DNA from: Acidobacteriota bacterium
GTDB taxonomy: Bacteria; Acidobacteriota; Terriglobia; Bryobacterales; UBA6623
Direction: 5' to 3'
Length of the DNA stretch: 64,000 bases
NCBI GenBank assembly: GCA_016125275.1
Contig: WGMB01000015.1
Location: forward strand, 1 to 64,000
Notes under the pieces: generated by a model
The model's input: only the letters and a program-made list of their open reading frames with translations
Told to the model about the DNA's origin: nothing
Databases searched by the model: none
Shown: in pieces, positions 29,884-40,232 of the stretch
Layout of the letters: each line of letters starts with the position of its first letter
Numbering within the stretch: the stretch's first letter is position 1
Program-made: the position numbers and the translations under genes

Positions 29884-32800
29884 CTACCACCGGTCCGCCG
29901 CCGGCGCCGCCTTGCCGTTGCGCGTCCGCTTCTTGCGCTTCTGCTCGATCAGCTCCTCCAGGCTCAGCACCAGCCGCCGCGCCCGGTCCAGCAGGTCCTC
30001 TGAAATCGGGCCGGACACCTTGCGCAGCTCCCCGAAGGCCGCCACCGCATACCGCCGCGCCTCGCCCAGCCGCCCCACGTCCCGCAGCGCAATCGCCAGG
30101 TTGAAGCGCGTCTTGGCCGCCCCGAACGTGTTGCCTTGGAGCTGGTCGAAGCGGATCGCCTCGCGATAGTGCGGCAAAGCCCGGTCGATGTCTCCCATCG
30201 AGTACGAAGCGTGCCCGTACTGCAGGTTGTGGCTCGCCAGGCTGGCGAAGTCGTCGGCGGCGTCGTGCTCCACCGCCCGCAGGTAGTACTGCCGGGCGTC
30301 GGTCAAGTGCCGGATCAGCTCCGACTCGGGCCGGTCCGTGGCGCGCGCCGTGCGGAACCGTTCCCAGGCCACCAGCCCCAGCGCCGCCAAAAAGCGCGCT
30401 CGCTCGGGCGCGTGCGGCGGCAGCGTTTCCGCGCCCCGCCGCAGCCAGCGCTCGGCGCGCGCCAAGTCCCGTATGCCCCGAATCTCCGTGTAGTTCGCGC
30501 CCAGCTCGTAGCACCAGTCCGAAGCCTTCTGCGCGTCGCCCAGCCGCTCGGCCAGCTCCACGGCTTCGTTCTCCACCTTGTACAGCGGCCGCGAGTCGTT
30601 GCGCGCGATGGCGCTGGTCCGGAACAGCGAGTCCGCCAAGTGCCGCACGGCCCGCAACTGCACCGCGTCGAGCTCTTCCACCGGCCGCTGGAGATAGGCC
30701 TCCACCTGCGCCCGGTCCCAGCTCATCGCCGCCTTCTGCAGTTCTCCGGCCCAACTGAAGACCTGCTGCTTCATCGCCAGTTGGATGCGCTGCTCGATCA
30801 CCGCCCGCCAAAAGGTGTCGCGCTTGGGCAGCGGCCCGCGCGTGGCAGGGTCCAGGCAGTAAGGCGCCAGCTCCTCGGTCAGGTCCTGCCACACGCTCGT
30901 CCGGCCGGCGACCAGGTACAGCGCGCCCAGTCCCCGCACCGGCCCCACGATCTCGTTCCACCAGCCCCTCTCGCGCGCCGCCCGGCAGGCCTGCCGCAGG
31001 TTGCTCTCGTTCCACTGCAACTGCGGCGGAACGTCCTCCTCATCCGCCTCCACGGCGTCGGCGACGGCATGACCGAACTCGCCCAGGGCCCCCACGAAGG
31101 CCCTCGTCGTGCGCTCCTCGCCCGCCGTCGCCGCCTTCTGCTCGGCCGGTTCGTCCTCCACGGCCAAGTCCACCTCGCTGGCGTCCTTCTCCAGCGTCTG
31201 CAAGTCGCTCGTCCGCAGCGCTCGGGCGATCACCCCCGTCGGCAGGGCCTTCGAGGCCGCCCCCAACCGGTCGCTGATGCTCCTCCCGCTCGCCGAGCGG
31301 CGTCCGCTCAGCCCCGACGAGGCGCCCAACGACGGCCGCACCGTCACCGGAAACCGCCGCTCGAACAGCGCCCGCAGCGGCTCCTCCGCACACGGCTCCA
31401 CCCGATACACGCCGCTCGCCAGAGACCCCAGCAGGCCGAAATCCCTCGCCCGGTCCAGCGGCGACTCCTCCTCTCTCGACCCCAACCGCTCGATCTGCGG
31501 CTGCAGCTCCCGCAGAGCCCACGGCTGCGGCGACGACGTCATCCGCGCCAGCAGCTTCACGTCGACCGTCGTGCGGAACAGGTGCAGCAGCGCCAGCACG
31601 TCCTGCTCGGCGTCGCTGAAGCCGTTGAACAGCACGTAGCTCAGCGCCGCCGTCGCCGGGTCCTCGGCCGCGTCGCCGCCCACCAGCGCGCCGCCGGTCT
31701 CGAACACCCGCCGCGCCAGCTCCTCGAGCTGCTCCTTCGAGCGAAGCCCCTCGTGCAGGGCTTCGCGCACCAGCAGCCGCGTCACCAAGGGGTTGCCGCG
31801 GCCGAACGAGACGATCGGGTCCCACTGCTCCAGCCCCGCCGTCGGCGCACCGCACTCGGTCAGTACCGAACGCACCAGTTGCAGCCGTTCCCGTGCGCTC
31901 CACTCGCCCGTGCGCAACCTCTGCACGCGTTTGCCCAGCCACTCTTCCTCACGCCGCGAAAGCAGCAGAAAACGCCCCTGCGTTTCCGTCACCGATTCCA
32001 GAAATTCCTTCAGCAGCTCCTTCTGCTCGAAGCTCCAAGGGTCCAAGCCGGACCCCTCCGGCCCCTCCACGGTCTCGAGCCCGTCCCAAATCCACAGCAC
32101 CGGAATCTGGTTCAGGATGTACAGCGCCGTATCCAGCCGCTCTTCCGGCTGCATCCGCTCCCACTGCAGCCCGTTGCTCTCCAGCGCCTCCTCGAAGTGG
32201 GCGGCGAGTTGGTCCAGCAGCGACACCAGCGAGCGGTGCAGGTGCAGGGAGCTGTACAGCACCGGGCCCCCCAGCCCGCCCGAGCCCGTCAGCCACACCG
32301 CGAAGCCCGACGCCGCCGAGGTCTTGCCGCTGCCCTGCGGTCCGTGCAGCAACACCGTGGAGTTGCTCTGGAACATCCGGTCCAGGTCCGCTTCGAGGTC
32401 CGCCCGCCGCACCTGCCCGGGCTGCTCCGGGTCCGGCATCAGCGGGTCCAGCGGCGGCCGCTCCCGCTCCACATAGGGCTTCTCGAAGCGCTGGCCTTCC
32501 AGCGGGCTCAGCGGCTGGAACGGGACCGTTTCGTGGACGATCGGCTCGCACCAGTCCACCCGCCGCACCGCGTCGAAGGCGATCGAGCGCTGGGCGTCGC
32601 GTTGCGCCTTCCGCCGCGCCGCCGTCGCCGCCGAGCCCACCGTGCGCCCCTCGCCGAGCTCGGCGTAGAACGTCTCGAACCACCCCGCCACCGCCGACGG
32701 GTCCAGGCAATAGGGCGACTCCACCACCGCCGCCACGCCGAACGCGCTGAGCTCGTCGGCCAGCCGGTGAAATCCTTCCTGAATCTCCGCCCGCCGCTTG

Positions 32801-33735
32801 GCCGCTGCGTTCGCGGACGTCTCCCGCAGCTCGCAACAGTTCGACAACACCAGGATCGGCGTCCGCGCCTCGCCCAGCGCCTCCGCCAGCGCCGTCGAAT
32901 CCACCAGCCGCAGCCGTGAGCTGTCTTGCGCGTGGTGCAGCGCCAGGTAGCCGGCCACGCCCGCCGGGGCCGCGTTCTGGGCGTACCGCGGCTGCGGCGT
33001 CTCCTCTTGCTCCTCCGCGCTCAGGTCCGCCGCCAGCGCCACGCCGTCAAAATGCACCACGTGGTACGGCTCGCCGAAGGCCTCGGCCTCCAGCAGCGTG
33101 CTGGTGAGCTTGCCGAAGGTCGGCGGACGCAGGATCTCCCACTCCACCTGCCGCGCCGAAAGCCGCCGGGCCAATTCTTGAAAATCCGGCCGGAACGCGA
33201 TGTCGCCCAGGCGGCTGGGCCGGCAGATCACCGCCAGCACCCTCAGCCGCCGCGCCTTGTCCGGCTTGAACAGCGCTTCGCCCGGCGTGAACGCCGCCCG
33301 CCGCACGAAGCTCTCGCACTCCGCCGCCAGCCAGCGCCGCGACGAGCGCTCCCGCAGCAGCTCCCAGGGAAGGTCCTCGCTTCCCTCGGCCGGCGGGCTG
33401 ATGATCTCCACCCGAGCGTCGGCCAGGCGCGCCGAAACCTTCTCCCACAGCGCCGCCGCGGCCGGCGTGGCGAACGCCGCCTCGAACAGCCCCTCGCCGA
33501 TCTTCTCCAGCCGTCTCTCGGTGTAAGTCGCTACGTCCCGGGCCTCGCCCGCCGGATAGTCCAGGTAGTCTTCCCAGTACCACCGGATGTGTTCCCTGTC
33601 TTCGGCGGAAACCTCGAAATCCAGCTCGACGGAGCAGTCTGCGGCGACCTCGCCCTCAGTGAGCAAGACCAGACGCAACGAGCCTGTCCGCGCGGATGCG
33701 CGAACGTGTTCCAACCGCAGCGTCAACTCGGCCAC
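29884..33735 (-). CDS. CHAT-domain protease / STAND-type NTPase / TPR-like multidomain protein
   Basis: GTG start. CHAT-like His/Cys: EPYHVVHFDGVAL and ILVLSNCCELRE. P-loop VLLHGPQGSGKTS; Walker B PVLWIWDGLE; GRGNPLVTRLLVREAL; C-terminal helical TPR-like repeats. Confidence 0.83.
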   Translation of the reverse strand: MAELTLRLEHVRASARTGSLRLVLLTEGEVAADCSVELDFEVSAEDREHIRWYWEDYLDYPAGEARDVATYTERRLEKIGEGLFEAAFATPAAAALWEKVSARLADARVEIISPPAEGSEDLPWELLRERSSRRWLAAECESFVRRAAFTPGEALFKPDKARRLRVLAVICRPSRLGDIAFRPDFQELARRLSARQVEWEILRPPTFGKLTSTLLEAEAFGEPYHVVHFDGVALAADLSAEEQEETPQPRYAQNAAPAGVAGYLALHHAQDSSRLRLVDSTALAEALGEARTPILVLSNCCELRETSANAAAKRRAEIQEGFHRLADELSAFGVAAVVESPYCLDPSAVAGWFETFYAELGEGRTVGSAATAARRKAQRDAQRSIAFDAVRRVDWCEPIVHETVPFQPLSPLEGQRFEKPYVERERPPLDPLMPDPEQPGQVRRADLEADLDRMFQSNSTVLLHGPQGSGKTSAASGFAVWLTGSGGLGGPVLYSSLHLHRSLVSLLDQLAAHFEEALESNGLQWERMQPEERLDTALYILNQIPVLWIWDGLETVEGPEGSGLDPWSFEQKELLKEFLESVTETQGRFLLLSRREEEWLGKRVQRLRTGEWSARERLQLVRSVLTECGAPTAGLEQWDPIVSFGRGNPLVTRLLVREALHEGLRSKEQLEELARRVFETGGALVGGDAAEDPATAALSYVLFNGFSDAEQDVLALLHLFRTTVDVKLLARMTSSPQPWALRELQPQIERLGSREEESPLDRARDFGLLGSLASGVYRVEPCAEEPLRALFERRFPVTVRPSLGASSGLSGRRSASGRSISDRLGAASKALPTGVIARALRTSDLQTLEKDASEVDLAVEDEPAEQKAATAGEERTTRAFVGALGEFGHAVADAVEADEEDVPPQLQWNESNLRQACRAARERGWWNEIVGPVRGLGALYLVAGRTSVWQDLTEELAPYCLDPATRGPLPKRDTFWRAVIEQRIQLAMKQQVFSWAGELQKAAMSWDRAQVEAYLQRPVEELDAVQLRAVRHLADSLFRTSAIARNDSRPLYKVENEAVELAERLGDAQKASDWCYELGANYTEIRGIRDLARAERWLRRGAETLPPHAPERARFLAALGLVAWERFRTARATDRPESELIRHLTDARQYYLRAVEHDAADDFASLASHNLQYGHASYSMGDIDRALPHYREAIRFDQLQGNTFGAAKTRFNLAIALRDVGRLGEARRYAVAAFGELRKVSGPISEDLLDRARRLVLSLEELIEQKRKKRTRNGKAAPAADRW

Positions 33736-33842: not shown

Positions 33843-34551
33843 CTAGCGGCCCACGGCGCGAACGCGGTCCAACGGCGTCGGGGCCAACGCCACAGCGTGA
33901 TCCCGATCCTGCTCCAGCTCGCCGCAATGCGCCCGCAGCCCGGCATACGACCGCACGGCCACACAGCGCCGCCGGATGTCGATGCAGCCCGCCCTTTGCA
34001 GGCGGTTCAGAGCGCTCGACGTCGTCTCACGGGTCGCCCCGATCAGCCCGGCCAGGTCCTTCTGGGACAGGCGCAGCTCCACGCATTCGGCCAGCTCGTC
34101 CTGCGTCCAACGCAGCAGCAGCCGGGCGATGCGCTGCTCCACTTCCAGAAAGCTCACCCACTGGAGCTGTTCCTCGAGCCGGCGCACCCGTTTTTGCAAC
34201 AGATCCGCAAAACCCGTCCAGAATTCCGGCGTCTCCTCCGCAAACCGCACCGCGGCCCGCGTCGGAACCATCGTGATGGCCGACCGTTCGAGCACTTCGG
34301 CCGACGCCGAACGCACGTCGCCGCCCACCAGACCTTCTTCGCCGAAAATCTCTCCCGGCTCCACGATCTGGAACAGGCAATGCTTGCCGCCGGGTCCGTG
34401 GACCCACGTCTTCACCCGTCCCTCGCGCAAGATCAGGACCCTGTCAGCCGGGTCCCCGGCTTCGTAAAGCTCGGTTCCCCGCCCCAGGTTTCCCAGATGA
34501 ACAGCTTCATCGAGCTGCGCCAATTGGGAGCCGGCGGACGGGACCGACATC
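33843..34551 (-). CDS. Crp/Fnr family transcriptional regulator
   Basis: cNMP-binding fold GNLGRGTELYEAGDPADRVLILREGRVKTWV...PGEIFGEEGL; HTH LSQKDLAGLIGATRETTSSALNRLQRAGCI. Start approximate (MSVPSAGSQ, or upstream in-frame 34601). Confidence 0.92.
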
Positions 34552-34646
34552 CGTGGAATCAGTGTTGCAGTCGTCAATTCAGACCCGAATGCCTCAATCA
34601 AGGCGGGGACAGAATATCAAAAATTCCGCCCAGGTCCCAAGAAATA

Positions 34647-38351: not shown

Positions 38352-40232
38352 TCACGGCACGACTTCCAGATCCAGGAACGTCGTCGTGTCCACCCAACGG
38401 AAGACGCCGCCCGCGTCCAGCCCCGTCGCCTCGAAGCGCGTCACGCCCTCCGCCGGCGGCATGTGGGTCACGTTCAGCGTCAGCAGCCCGTCCGGCAGCA
38501 ACGCCAGCGCCCACGGCGGAACCGTGAACGACAGCGCCCCCGCCGTCGTCGTGCACACGAACGCCTGCGAGCGGAACTGCATCGGGTCGCTCACCGGACG
38601 CTGCACGGTCGGCGGAATCAGGAACGACCGCCCGTGGATCACCACCAGGTCGTTCGGGTCCCCGCCCGTCCAGCTCAGCGTCAGCCCCGCCGCCCGGCTC
38701 ACCTGCGTCCCGGCCGCCAGCGAAGTCGTCACCGTCACCGGCGGCGACACCGTCATCGTCGCCGGACCGAACGCGCCGACCTCCGCGCCGCCCATGCCCT
38801 GGGTCGCGTAGTCGCCCTGCTCGATCGCCGCCGGCAACGGCGCCATGTAGAGCGGACCCAAGGCCGTCTGGATCGGCGTCAGCGTCAGGCTCACGCCCGG
38901 CCCCGTCACGTCGATCGTCCCCGCATCCAGACGCTGCACGGCCCCTCGCACGATGTCCGCAATCCCGTTCGGGCCGATCGGGTAGCTGTTGCAGCTATCC
39001 GTCGCCGCCGGCGGCACGCCGATGTCCAGCGAAGCATCCTCCGCCAGCCGCACGAACTGCGCCAGGGCCATGTTCGGACCCGTCGCCGTCATGCCCATGC
39101 CCGGCCCCTGTCCGAGGCCCAGCCCCAATCCGCCGGCAAACGACGGGATCCCCGGGTGCAGCCCGTAAGGGCCTATGCCGTTGTTCCCCACGCCGCCCGC
39201 GCCGCTCCGCACGCCGCCTCCGGGGCCCCTGTTCGGTCCCACCGGGTTGAACGGCGAAGGCCTCGTCGGGTACGGACCGCCGTAGCCGGCCGCGGCGCCC
39301 AGTTGCCCCGGCCCCAACCGGCCCAAGCCGCTGGCCAGCACCACCTGCCCAAAGCTCTCGCCCGCCGAGGTGATGTTGAACGCGTCCCGGCACACCCCGC
39401 CATTGCGGTGGATCGCAATCGTGCCGATGTTGCTGGTCCGGTCCATTTGCTGCAGCCGAACCGGCGCGGCGCAGCTATCCGGAACGCCCGCCGGAATCAC
39501 GATCTGGATCTGGTCCAGCCCCGCGAAGCCCGGCGCCCGCCCGGCATATTGCACTTGAGCCCTCATGCCGGCCACGAACACCTCCGGCTGCTCGACCGCC
39601 GGAGCCTGGCCCGGCGTGGGGTCGCCCGCCGCTACCGGCGGATTCGTGGCGCCGAGGCCCGTGCCCCATAGCACCATCACCTGCCCCGGTCGCGCCGAGT
39701 CCCGCACCCCGTTCATCCGAAACCGGTTCGCGGGGTCCGCCACATCCTCAAAGTTCTGCGCCAGCAGCGGTCCCCGACCATTGCGCGCCTGGGTAAACAA
39801 GCCGCAGCCCATGGGCCCGAACGGCGCTTCCACCGTATTGCTCGTCCCTTGGGTCGTCATCACGCGAATCCGAATCCGGTCGCCCGCCAGCCCCAACGGC
39901 AACTGGCAGTTCACCTGCGCGTCCGACACGTACAGCAGCCGGCACATCAACTGTTCATTGATCTGCACGCGCGTCCGCTGCGGCCCCAGCTCCTCCGGCA
40001 GGGGAAACGCCCCCGCCTGCACGCCCGCCGCCGGCCCCAACCCCGATCCGAAGATCGAGATCATGCCGCCCGGCGCCAGCTCCGCTCCCGGAAAGTCGGC
40101 GGGCCGAAAGCTCGCCGCATTCACTACGCCTCCCTGCGAAATCACCGGCTGAGCCGCCCCAGGCAGAACGGCTATTCCAAAAAACAGAGCCGCGAAACCC
40201 GCCACCCGCGGCCCGAAGGTTCTCTCTCGCAT
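38352..40232 (-). CDS. Secreted TIGR03437-like (Solibacter-type) protein
   Basis: ISQGGVVNAASFRPADFPGAELAPGGMISIFGSGLGP...VNCQLPLGLAGDRIRIRVMTTQGTSN...GQVMVLWGTGLGATNPPVAAGDPTPGQAP. Confidence 0.85.
   Translation of the reverse strand: MRERTFGPRVAGFAALFFGIAVLPGAAQPVISQGGVVNAASFRPADFPGAELAPGGMISIFGSGLGPAAGVQAGAFPLPEELGPQRTRVQINEQLMCRLLYVSDAQVNCQLPLGLAGDRIRIRVMTTQGTSNTVEAPFGPMGCGLFTQARNGRGPLLAQNFEDVADPANRFRMNGVRDSARPGQVMVLWGTGLGATNPPVAAGDPTPGQAPAVEQPEVFVAGMRAQVQYAGRAPGFAGLDQIQIVIPAGVPDSCAAPVRLQQMDRTSNIGTIAIHRNGGVCRDAFNITSAGESFGQVVLASGLGRLGPGQLGAAAGYGGPYPTRPSPFNPVGPNRGPGGGVRSGAGGVGNNGIGPYGLHPGIPSFAGGLGLGLGQGPGMGMTATGPNMALAQFVRLAEDASLDIGVPPAATDSCNSYPIGPNGIADIVRGAVQRLDAGTIDVTGPGVSLTLTPIQTALGPLYMAPLPAAIEQGDYATQGMGGAEVGAFGPATMTVSPPVTVTTSLAAGTQVSRAAGLTLSWTGGDPNDLVVIHGRSFLIPPTVQRPVSDPMQFRSQAFVCTTTAGALSFTVPPWALALLPDGLLTLNVTHMPPAEGVTRFEATGLDAGGVFRWVDTTTFLDLEVVP

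Follow-up and report, generated by a model that had tools for sequence, protein, structure and literature searches.

Does a gene that joins a caspase-like CHAT domain to a STAND ATPase and a tetratricopeptide-repeat (TPR) superhelix necessarily encode a protease? The question is raised by a 1283-residue protein encoded, from a GTG start, at 29884..33735 of a 64 000-nucleotide stretch of DNA from a soil bacterium of the Acidobacteriota (assembly GCA_016125275.1, contig WGMB01000015.1, positions 1 to 64 000), referred to here as the window; the gene lies on the minus strand, as do all other window features whose coordinates are given below. A sequence-only reading had taken the protein for a protease effector whose catalysis depends on a His/Cys pair. 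This does not hold for the window protein, in which the dyad histidine is replaced by valine. The gene probably encodes a derived but retained pseudoprotease of a widespread CHAT–STAND–TPR family, with the role of a regulator, a decoy or an adaptor.

The catalytic dyad

The dyad histidine column corresponds to residue 232 of the window protein. This column holds histidine in 88/88 alignable relatives (one further tallied row, which is frameshifted, departs from this, and the rows include a few second copies and frameshifted fragments), whereas the window protein has valine and reads HFDGVA in place of HFDGHG. The replacement of the catalytic His-Gly by V232-A233 (33037..33042; V232 codon 33040-33042) was located in the alignment of relatives and in that with the five CHAT paralogues from this genome, and the register of the SAVED-CHAT structure 8tl0 agrees. 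HFDGHG is also kept in five relatives that were collected without a motif-based pattern, and the dyad histidine is present in every additional order-level relative whose frame spans the site. When family members, the window protein and the five paralogues were aligned together, the other 12 sequences had histidine at the dyad column; all five paralogues have both His and Cys intact. A profile of this aligned set matched 8tl0 (E = 1.7e-10) with HFIGHG and LNACC in register, and gave weak matches to TPR-CHAT and separase. Since HFIGHG of 8tl0 aligns with HFDGHG, the register of the dyad histidine is fixed at position 232.

The histidines proposed earlier, H225 and H228 of EPYHVVHFDG, were rejected on these grounds: the H225 column is variable among relatives, H228 is the conserved strand residue preceding FDG and its column holds Gln in the intact same-genome CHAT protein L159, and the dyad column is 232. 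The cysteine proposed in ILVLSNCCEL fared better, but only in part. Cys300 (codon 32836-32838) aligns with the catalytic cysteine, which is present in 89/90 rows, and is retained, but the motif around it is degraded: in the alignment with relatives, S298-L303 (SNCCEL; 32827..32844) replaces NAC[RQK]SA. Homologues uniformly lacking the catalytic residues, an outcome that the sequence-only reading had envisaged, were not seen; the window copy is the exception.

Cleavage is reported to be abolished in the Csx29 dyad mutant H615A/C658A (PMC10028731) and in the TPR-CHAT mutants C627A/S (PMC9729208). Judged from its residues, the window CHAT domain is predicted to be incapable of dyad-catalysed proteolysis. 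A sequencing error or frameshift masking the histidine was considered and ruled out. Several base changes are needed to turn HG into VA (GTGGCG versus His-Gly codons), so that one sequencing error is no explanation; the codon composition gives no sign of a frame shift and the Cys motif is altered too.

The pattern of constraint was examined over 90 columns with a conservation of 95% or more among the remaining family members. The window protein differs at 21/90 of these overall. Of the active-site motif columns, 5/6 are changed (hypergeometric P = 0.002, a descriptive value), compared with 0/6 of the NTPase Walker A/B motif columns. Long-branch relatives (e.g. Streptomyces, L037 and L122) diverge elsewhere and have an unchanged active site.

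Two observations concern other CHAT genes. In a Sulfopaludibacter metagenome-assembled genome (Solibacteraceae; L055:10855-10860, the same locus as G629/L189) the dyad His is kept and the catalytic Cys is replaced by Arg, as a TGC to CGC change would produce; the dyad may have been inactivated a second time within the order, or the sequence may be wrong at this point. The window's own genome encodes, at L158:1694-5524 (G000:C6), a TIR-like/CHAT/STAND/TPR protein of 1277 residues with an intact dyad (LHLSGHG, LASCHSG; domain names assigned by eye), as well as four more CHAT proteins in which both His and Cys are intact.

Reading frame and domain architecture

The gene was delimited using the open reading frame (ORF) listing, Pfam and codon-position G+C. 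Its 1283 codons contain 0 stops and 0 frameshifts and have a normal codon structure. The G+C content by codon position (0.72/0.49/0.91) matches that of the neighbouring housekeeping genes and is coding-like in every 100-codon block, which argues for a real coding frame and not a chance high-GC ORF. The three blocks proposed from the sequence (CHAT, STAND NTPase and a long helical, TPR-like C-terminus) were recovered by Pfam, AlphaFold2 and Foldseek, and structure prediction, suggested earlier as a check on the CHAT fold and the domain boundaries, gave a caspase-like fold. Pfam CHAT (PF12770) matches aa 94-384 (E = 7.7e-9; 35.8 bits against a curated cut-off of 24), the weakest PF12770 score among the six CHAT proteins of this genome; NACHT (E = 4e-4) and TPR (E = 5e-5; TPR_12, aa 1167-1230) both fall under their curated cut-offs. 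With alignments of the window protein and relatives' sequences as input, AlphaFold2 gave a predicted local distance difference test (pLDDT) score of 85.5 and a predicted template-modelling (pTM) score of 0.85 for aa 1-820, and 84.3 and 0.78, respectively, for aa 400-1283. A phmmer search of the PDB with the single window protein as query returned TPRs only.

The catalytically degenerate CHAT domain with its N-terminal extension (aa 1-405; 32521..33735) was assigned by Pfam, AlphaFold2 and Foldseek, which matched the N-terminal domain to TPR-CHAT 7zoq (E = 4.5e-6) and SAVED-CHAT 8tl0 (E = 1.4e-5) and so identified a caspase/CHAT fold. The NB-ARC/STAND nucleotide-binding domain (about aa 440-625; 31861..32418) was identified by profile matches to NB-ARC, CED-4 and PH0952 and by Foldseek matches of the ATPase block to CED-4, Apaf-1 and plant NLRs. 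Within it, the Walker A motif or P-loop HGPQGSGKTS (aa 464-473; 32317..32346; K471 codon 32323-32325) keeps G468, G470 and K471, and the Walker B motif WIWDGLE (aa 548-554; 32074..32094; D551 codon 32083-32085) keeps W550, D551 and E554, all of which are conserved in relatives. The helical and winged-helix part with the GNPL motif (about aa 626-800; 31336..31860) was placed by alignment and AlphaFold2. All three motifs lie where they had been read from the sequence, and with Walker A and B, a GNPL-type motif and a winged-helix part the module belongs with the STAND/NB-ARC (AP-ATPase) proteins; its conserved HPALP motif reads EPCAE in the window protein.

A disordered linker (aa 803-871; 31123..31329) follows, with pLDDT < 50; aa 797-813 and 820-868 are occupied in < 20% of relatives. 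The C-terminal block, a TPR-like superhelix and putative sensor (about aa 872-1276; 29908..31122), has a pLDDT of mostly 90-98, bearing out the helical C-terminus proposed earlier, and contains the TPR_12 match. Foldseek matched the aa 400-1283 model to the archaeal TPR-STAND protein PH0952, Apaf-1 and TPR superhelices including the LGN/Pins TPR.

The proposed likeness to caspase/apoptosome-type systems holds by Pfam CHAT, AlphaFold2, Foldseek and the profile match to SAVED-CHAT. The CHAT fold is shared, in sequence and structure matches, with the SAVED-CHAT protease (8tl0) and TPR-CHAT/Csx29 (7zoq, 7x8a), but these proteins lack a STAND ATPase, sense through SAVED or through TPR with Cas7-11, and have an intact dyad. 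Csx29/TPR-CHAT of type III-E CRISPR has its TPR before the CHAT domain and Cas7-11 as a partner, whereas the order here is CHAT-STAND-TPR among housekeeping neighbours, and the window protein is not of that type. The NB-ARC/STAND module is shared with CED-4, Apaf-1 and PH0952 (6mfv), in the last of which the module is likewise followed by a TPR array; CED-4 and Apaf-1 have to recruit their caspase as a separate protein, whereas the caspase-like domain of the window protein is fused and predicted to be inert. A caspase fold without the His/Cys dyad, as here, is found in inactive VMAP caspase domains (PMC7159879) and cyanobacterial pseudo-orthocaspases (PMC6426788), which belong to different subfamilies and architectures and are not CHAT-STAND-TPR proteins. 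In the VMAP conflict systems about 70% of effector-position caspase domains are inactive, and the authors propose that they are dominant negatives or peptide binders (PMC7159879).

Relatives and genomic context

Single-sequence scans of genome and viral contig collections gave 0 matches, and an alignment query was needed. Built with initial relatives that came from plasmids and from the phylum, it gave 421 matches on genome contigs, of which 79 loci were kept (26-37% identity, many collinear over aa 1-1260). The window protein shows the full-length collinear homology by which the CHAT–STAND–TPR family is defined here. The family ranges over Acidobacteriota, Chloroflexota, Cyanobacteriota, Actinomycetota, Planctomycetota, Pseudomonadota and methanogenic archaea; two relatives lie on IMG/VR contigs, and no phage match was found. 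A profile search over relatives is uninformative on the family, since generic TPR/CHAT segments make almost every genome match. Streptomyces avidinii WP_331732656.1, L052 (Acidobacteria) and L050/L079/L087 (Bryobacterales) have the same three blocks, collinear over nearly the full length at 29-36% identity. Unlike the window protein, the relatives keep HFDGHG and (except L055/G629) NAC[RQK]S. The gene is absent from the 17 other genomes of its own GTDB family, and at the order level the gene family is present in 12/256 other genomes. In the tree the end branch of the window protein is the longest of the family (2.24 versus a median of 0.26) and its placement is unresolved. A distant relative (G349:C75:40558-41850; L038:7725-12347) has an N-terminal TIR-like domain, assigned by eye, ahead of its CHAT domain (HISHTSKDDAFVKELREKL).

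Some relatives carry an adjacent partner gene. A first undescribed family, of 301-351 aa, stands beside six active relatives on the same strand, from a 10 bp overlap to 61 bp downstream (L050:13667-14602, L054:11822-12742, L056:4086-5042, L062:13627-14682, L078:3893-4813 and L106:13572-14477). Across phyla, its members share 50-74% identity with the L050 copy, have no Pfam match above cut-off and read WFDDLP..AAAKLREVGE followed by a conserved stretch with YPGGGTHRVLFDFYAQNQ; in four of its genomes it occurs once. This partner gene is missing from the window's genome (the four positive-control genomes were matched) and from 396 genomes of the phylum. A second family of about 220 aa (..WEGAF../..SIGRPVWW..) adjoins four other active relatives (L053:13684-14343, L089:13764-14453, L044:9038-9703 and the apparently frame-broken L051:6744-7413). 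Like Csx30 beside Csx29, both families are candidate substrates or partners.

In the window, a Crp/Fnr-type regulator (33843..34601; Pfam cNMP_binding, HTH_Crp_2) lies 107 bp upstream on the same strand. The downstream PhoH-YbeY-CNNM-Era block is conserved in the eight family genomes examined (CNNM is missing in some), where neither a CHAT gene nor a Crp regulator stands beside PhoH and the upstream TyrA gene is located elsewhere; the Crp and CHAT genes thus form a pair at a lineage-specific junction. An operon with the downstream block was ruled out, since the block stands without the CHAT gene in those eight genomes, and a recurrent Crp association in relatives was likewise rejected, with one distant match only. 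The Crp/Fnr-type neighbour might place the gene under cyclic nucleotide monophosphate control. Elsewhere in the window, ARAGORN places a tRNA-Arg (anticodon gcg; 39231-39326) inside a 626 aa ORF on the same strand (38352-40232), probably a false positive.

The earlier placement of the gene among housekeeping genes, with no CRISPR nearby, is in line with inspection of the neighbouring ORFs, which were not scanned with PADLOC and among which no CRISPR or defence gene was identified. The window protein itself fits no PADLOC model (Avs and other known anti-phage STAND systems), the best being mad8 (E = 0.03, P-loop only). Some relatives match the generic TPR model of PADLOC and, weakly, SAVED_CHAT. 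The neighbourhoods of active relatives gave little sign of defence genes, with only about a dozen PADLOC matches, one of them strong (ThsB1), among 114 neighbour proteins, a count that has no matched control set; the joint alignment of these 114 unrelated proteins was a device for scanning many proteins at once. A role in defence is possible.

A probable pseudoprotease function and its alternatives

If the protein is a retained pseudoprotease, the TPR superhelix would still sense a ligand, ATP binding at the intact Walker A/B site would drive an NLR/apoptosome-like conformational change or oligomerization, and the inert CHAT domain would then work by binding instead of cutting. The protein might serve as a peptide-binding adaptor, or else restrain other proteases, e.g. 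the five intact CHAT proteins of the genome, as a decoy or in a dominant-negative way. A bolder form of this proposal, less likely than not, is that the NLR/apoptosome-like protein senses a signal and, by ATP-driven assembly, sequesters substrates or restrains the cell's other CHAT proteases as a natural dominant-negative regulator. Several points weigh against a retained pseudoprotease. The loss is shared by no close relative and selection for the dead form is not measurable; no partner or ligand is known; conserved STAND positions are also changed (G443R, D445A, T592L and H780E); the motif changes were already known when the six motif columns were chosen; and the long branch also fits general decay.

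Decay is the chief rival: an ancestral CHAT–STAND–TPR protease would have lost its active site and now drift without function. Besides the branch length, the changes at conserved columns, STAND positions included, the lack of a partner gene and the absence of the gene from the rest of its GTDB family are in keeping with this. Over a branch of this length, however, drift would be expected to break a gene, so that the unbroken 1283-codon frame disfavours decay; the codon-position G+C is like that of the housekeeping neighbours, all 6/6 NTPase-motif residues checked are kept and AlphaFold2 gives a confident fold. We therefore regard decay as unlikely, though it is the alternative to be taken most seriously. 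Less likely still is an active protease without the canonical histidine, in which Cys300 or Cys301 would be helped by, for example, H228, H267 or H268. Cys300 is retained, and H267 and H268 are new histidines one strand away, in place of a conserved Glu, but the remaining motif is altered too (the HG, the N-A before the Cys and the Ser after it) and no relative has such a swap. An ordinary signal-gated caspase-like effector, probably anti-phage, as first proposed, is suggested by the domain layout and the active relatives but is contradicted by the missing catalytic histidine, the lack of a PADLOC match and the housekeeping context, and is very improbable.

A retained pseudoprotease thus remains the reading that we prefer. 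CHAT–STAND–TPR proteins are of an already known kind, and the pseudoprotease form would be the new element; a search of one literature library gave no report of a CHAT pseudoprotease with a STAND module. A CHAT and STAND architecture alone is no proof of a protease effector, and the dyad needs to be checked copy by copy. The active relatives and the undescribed genes adjacent to them offer a testable protease–substrate hypothesis. In eukaryotic death pathways, pseudocaspases such as cFLIP serve as brakes. If the reading preferred here is true, a STAND protein with a switch and a sensor but no cutting residue would offer a simple setting for asking whether brakes of the pseudocaspase type evolved in bacteria too.

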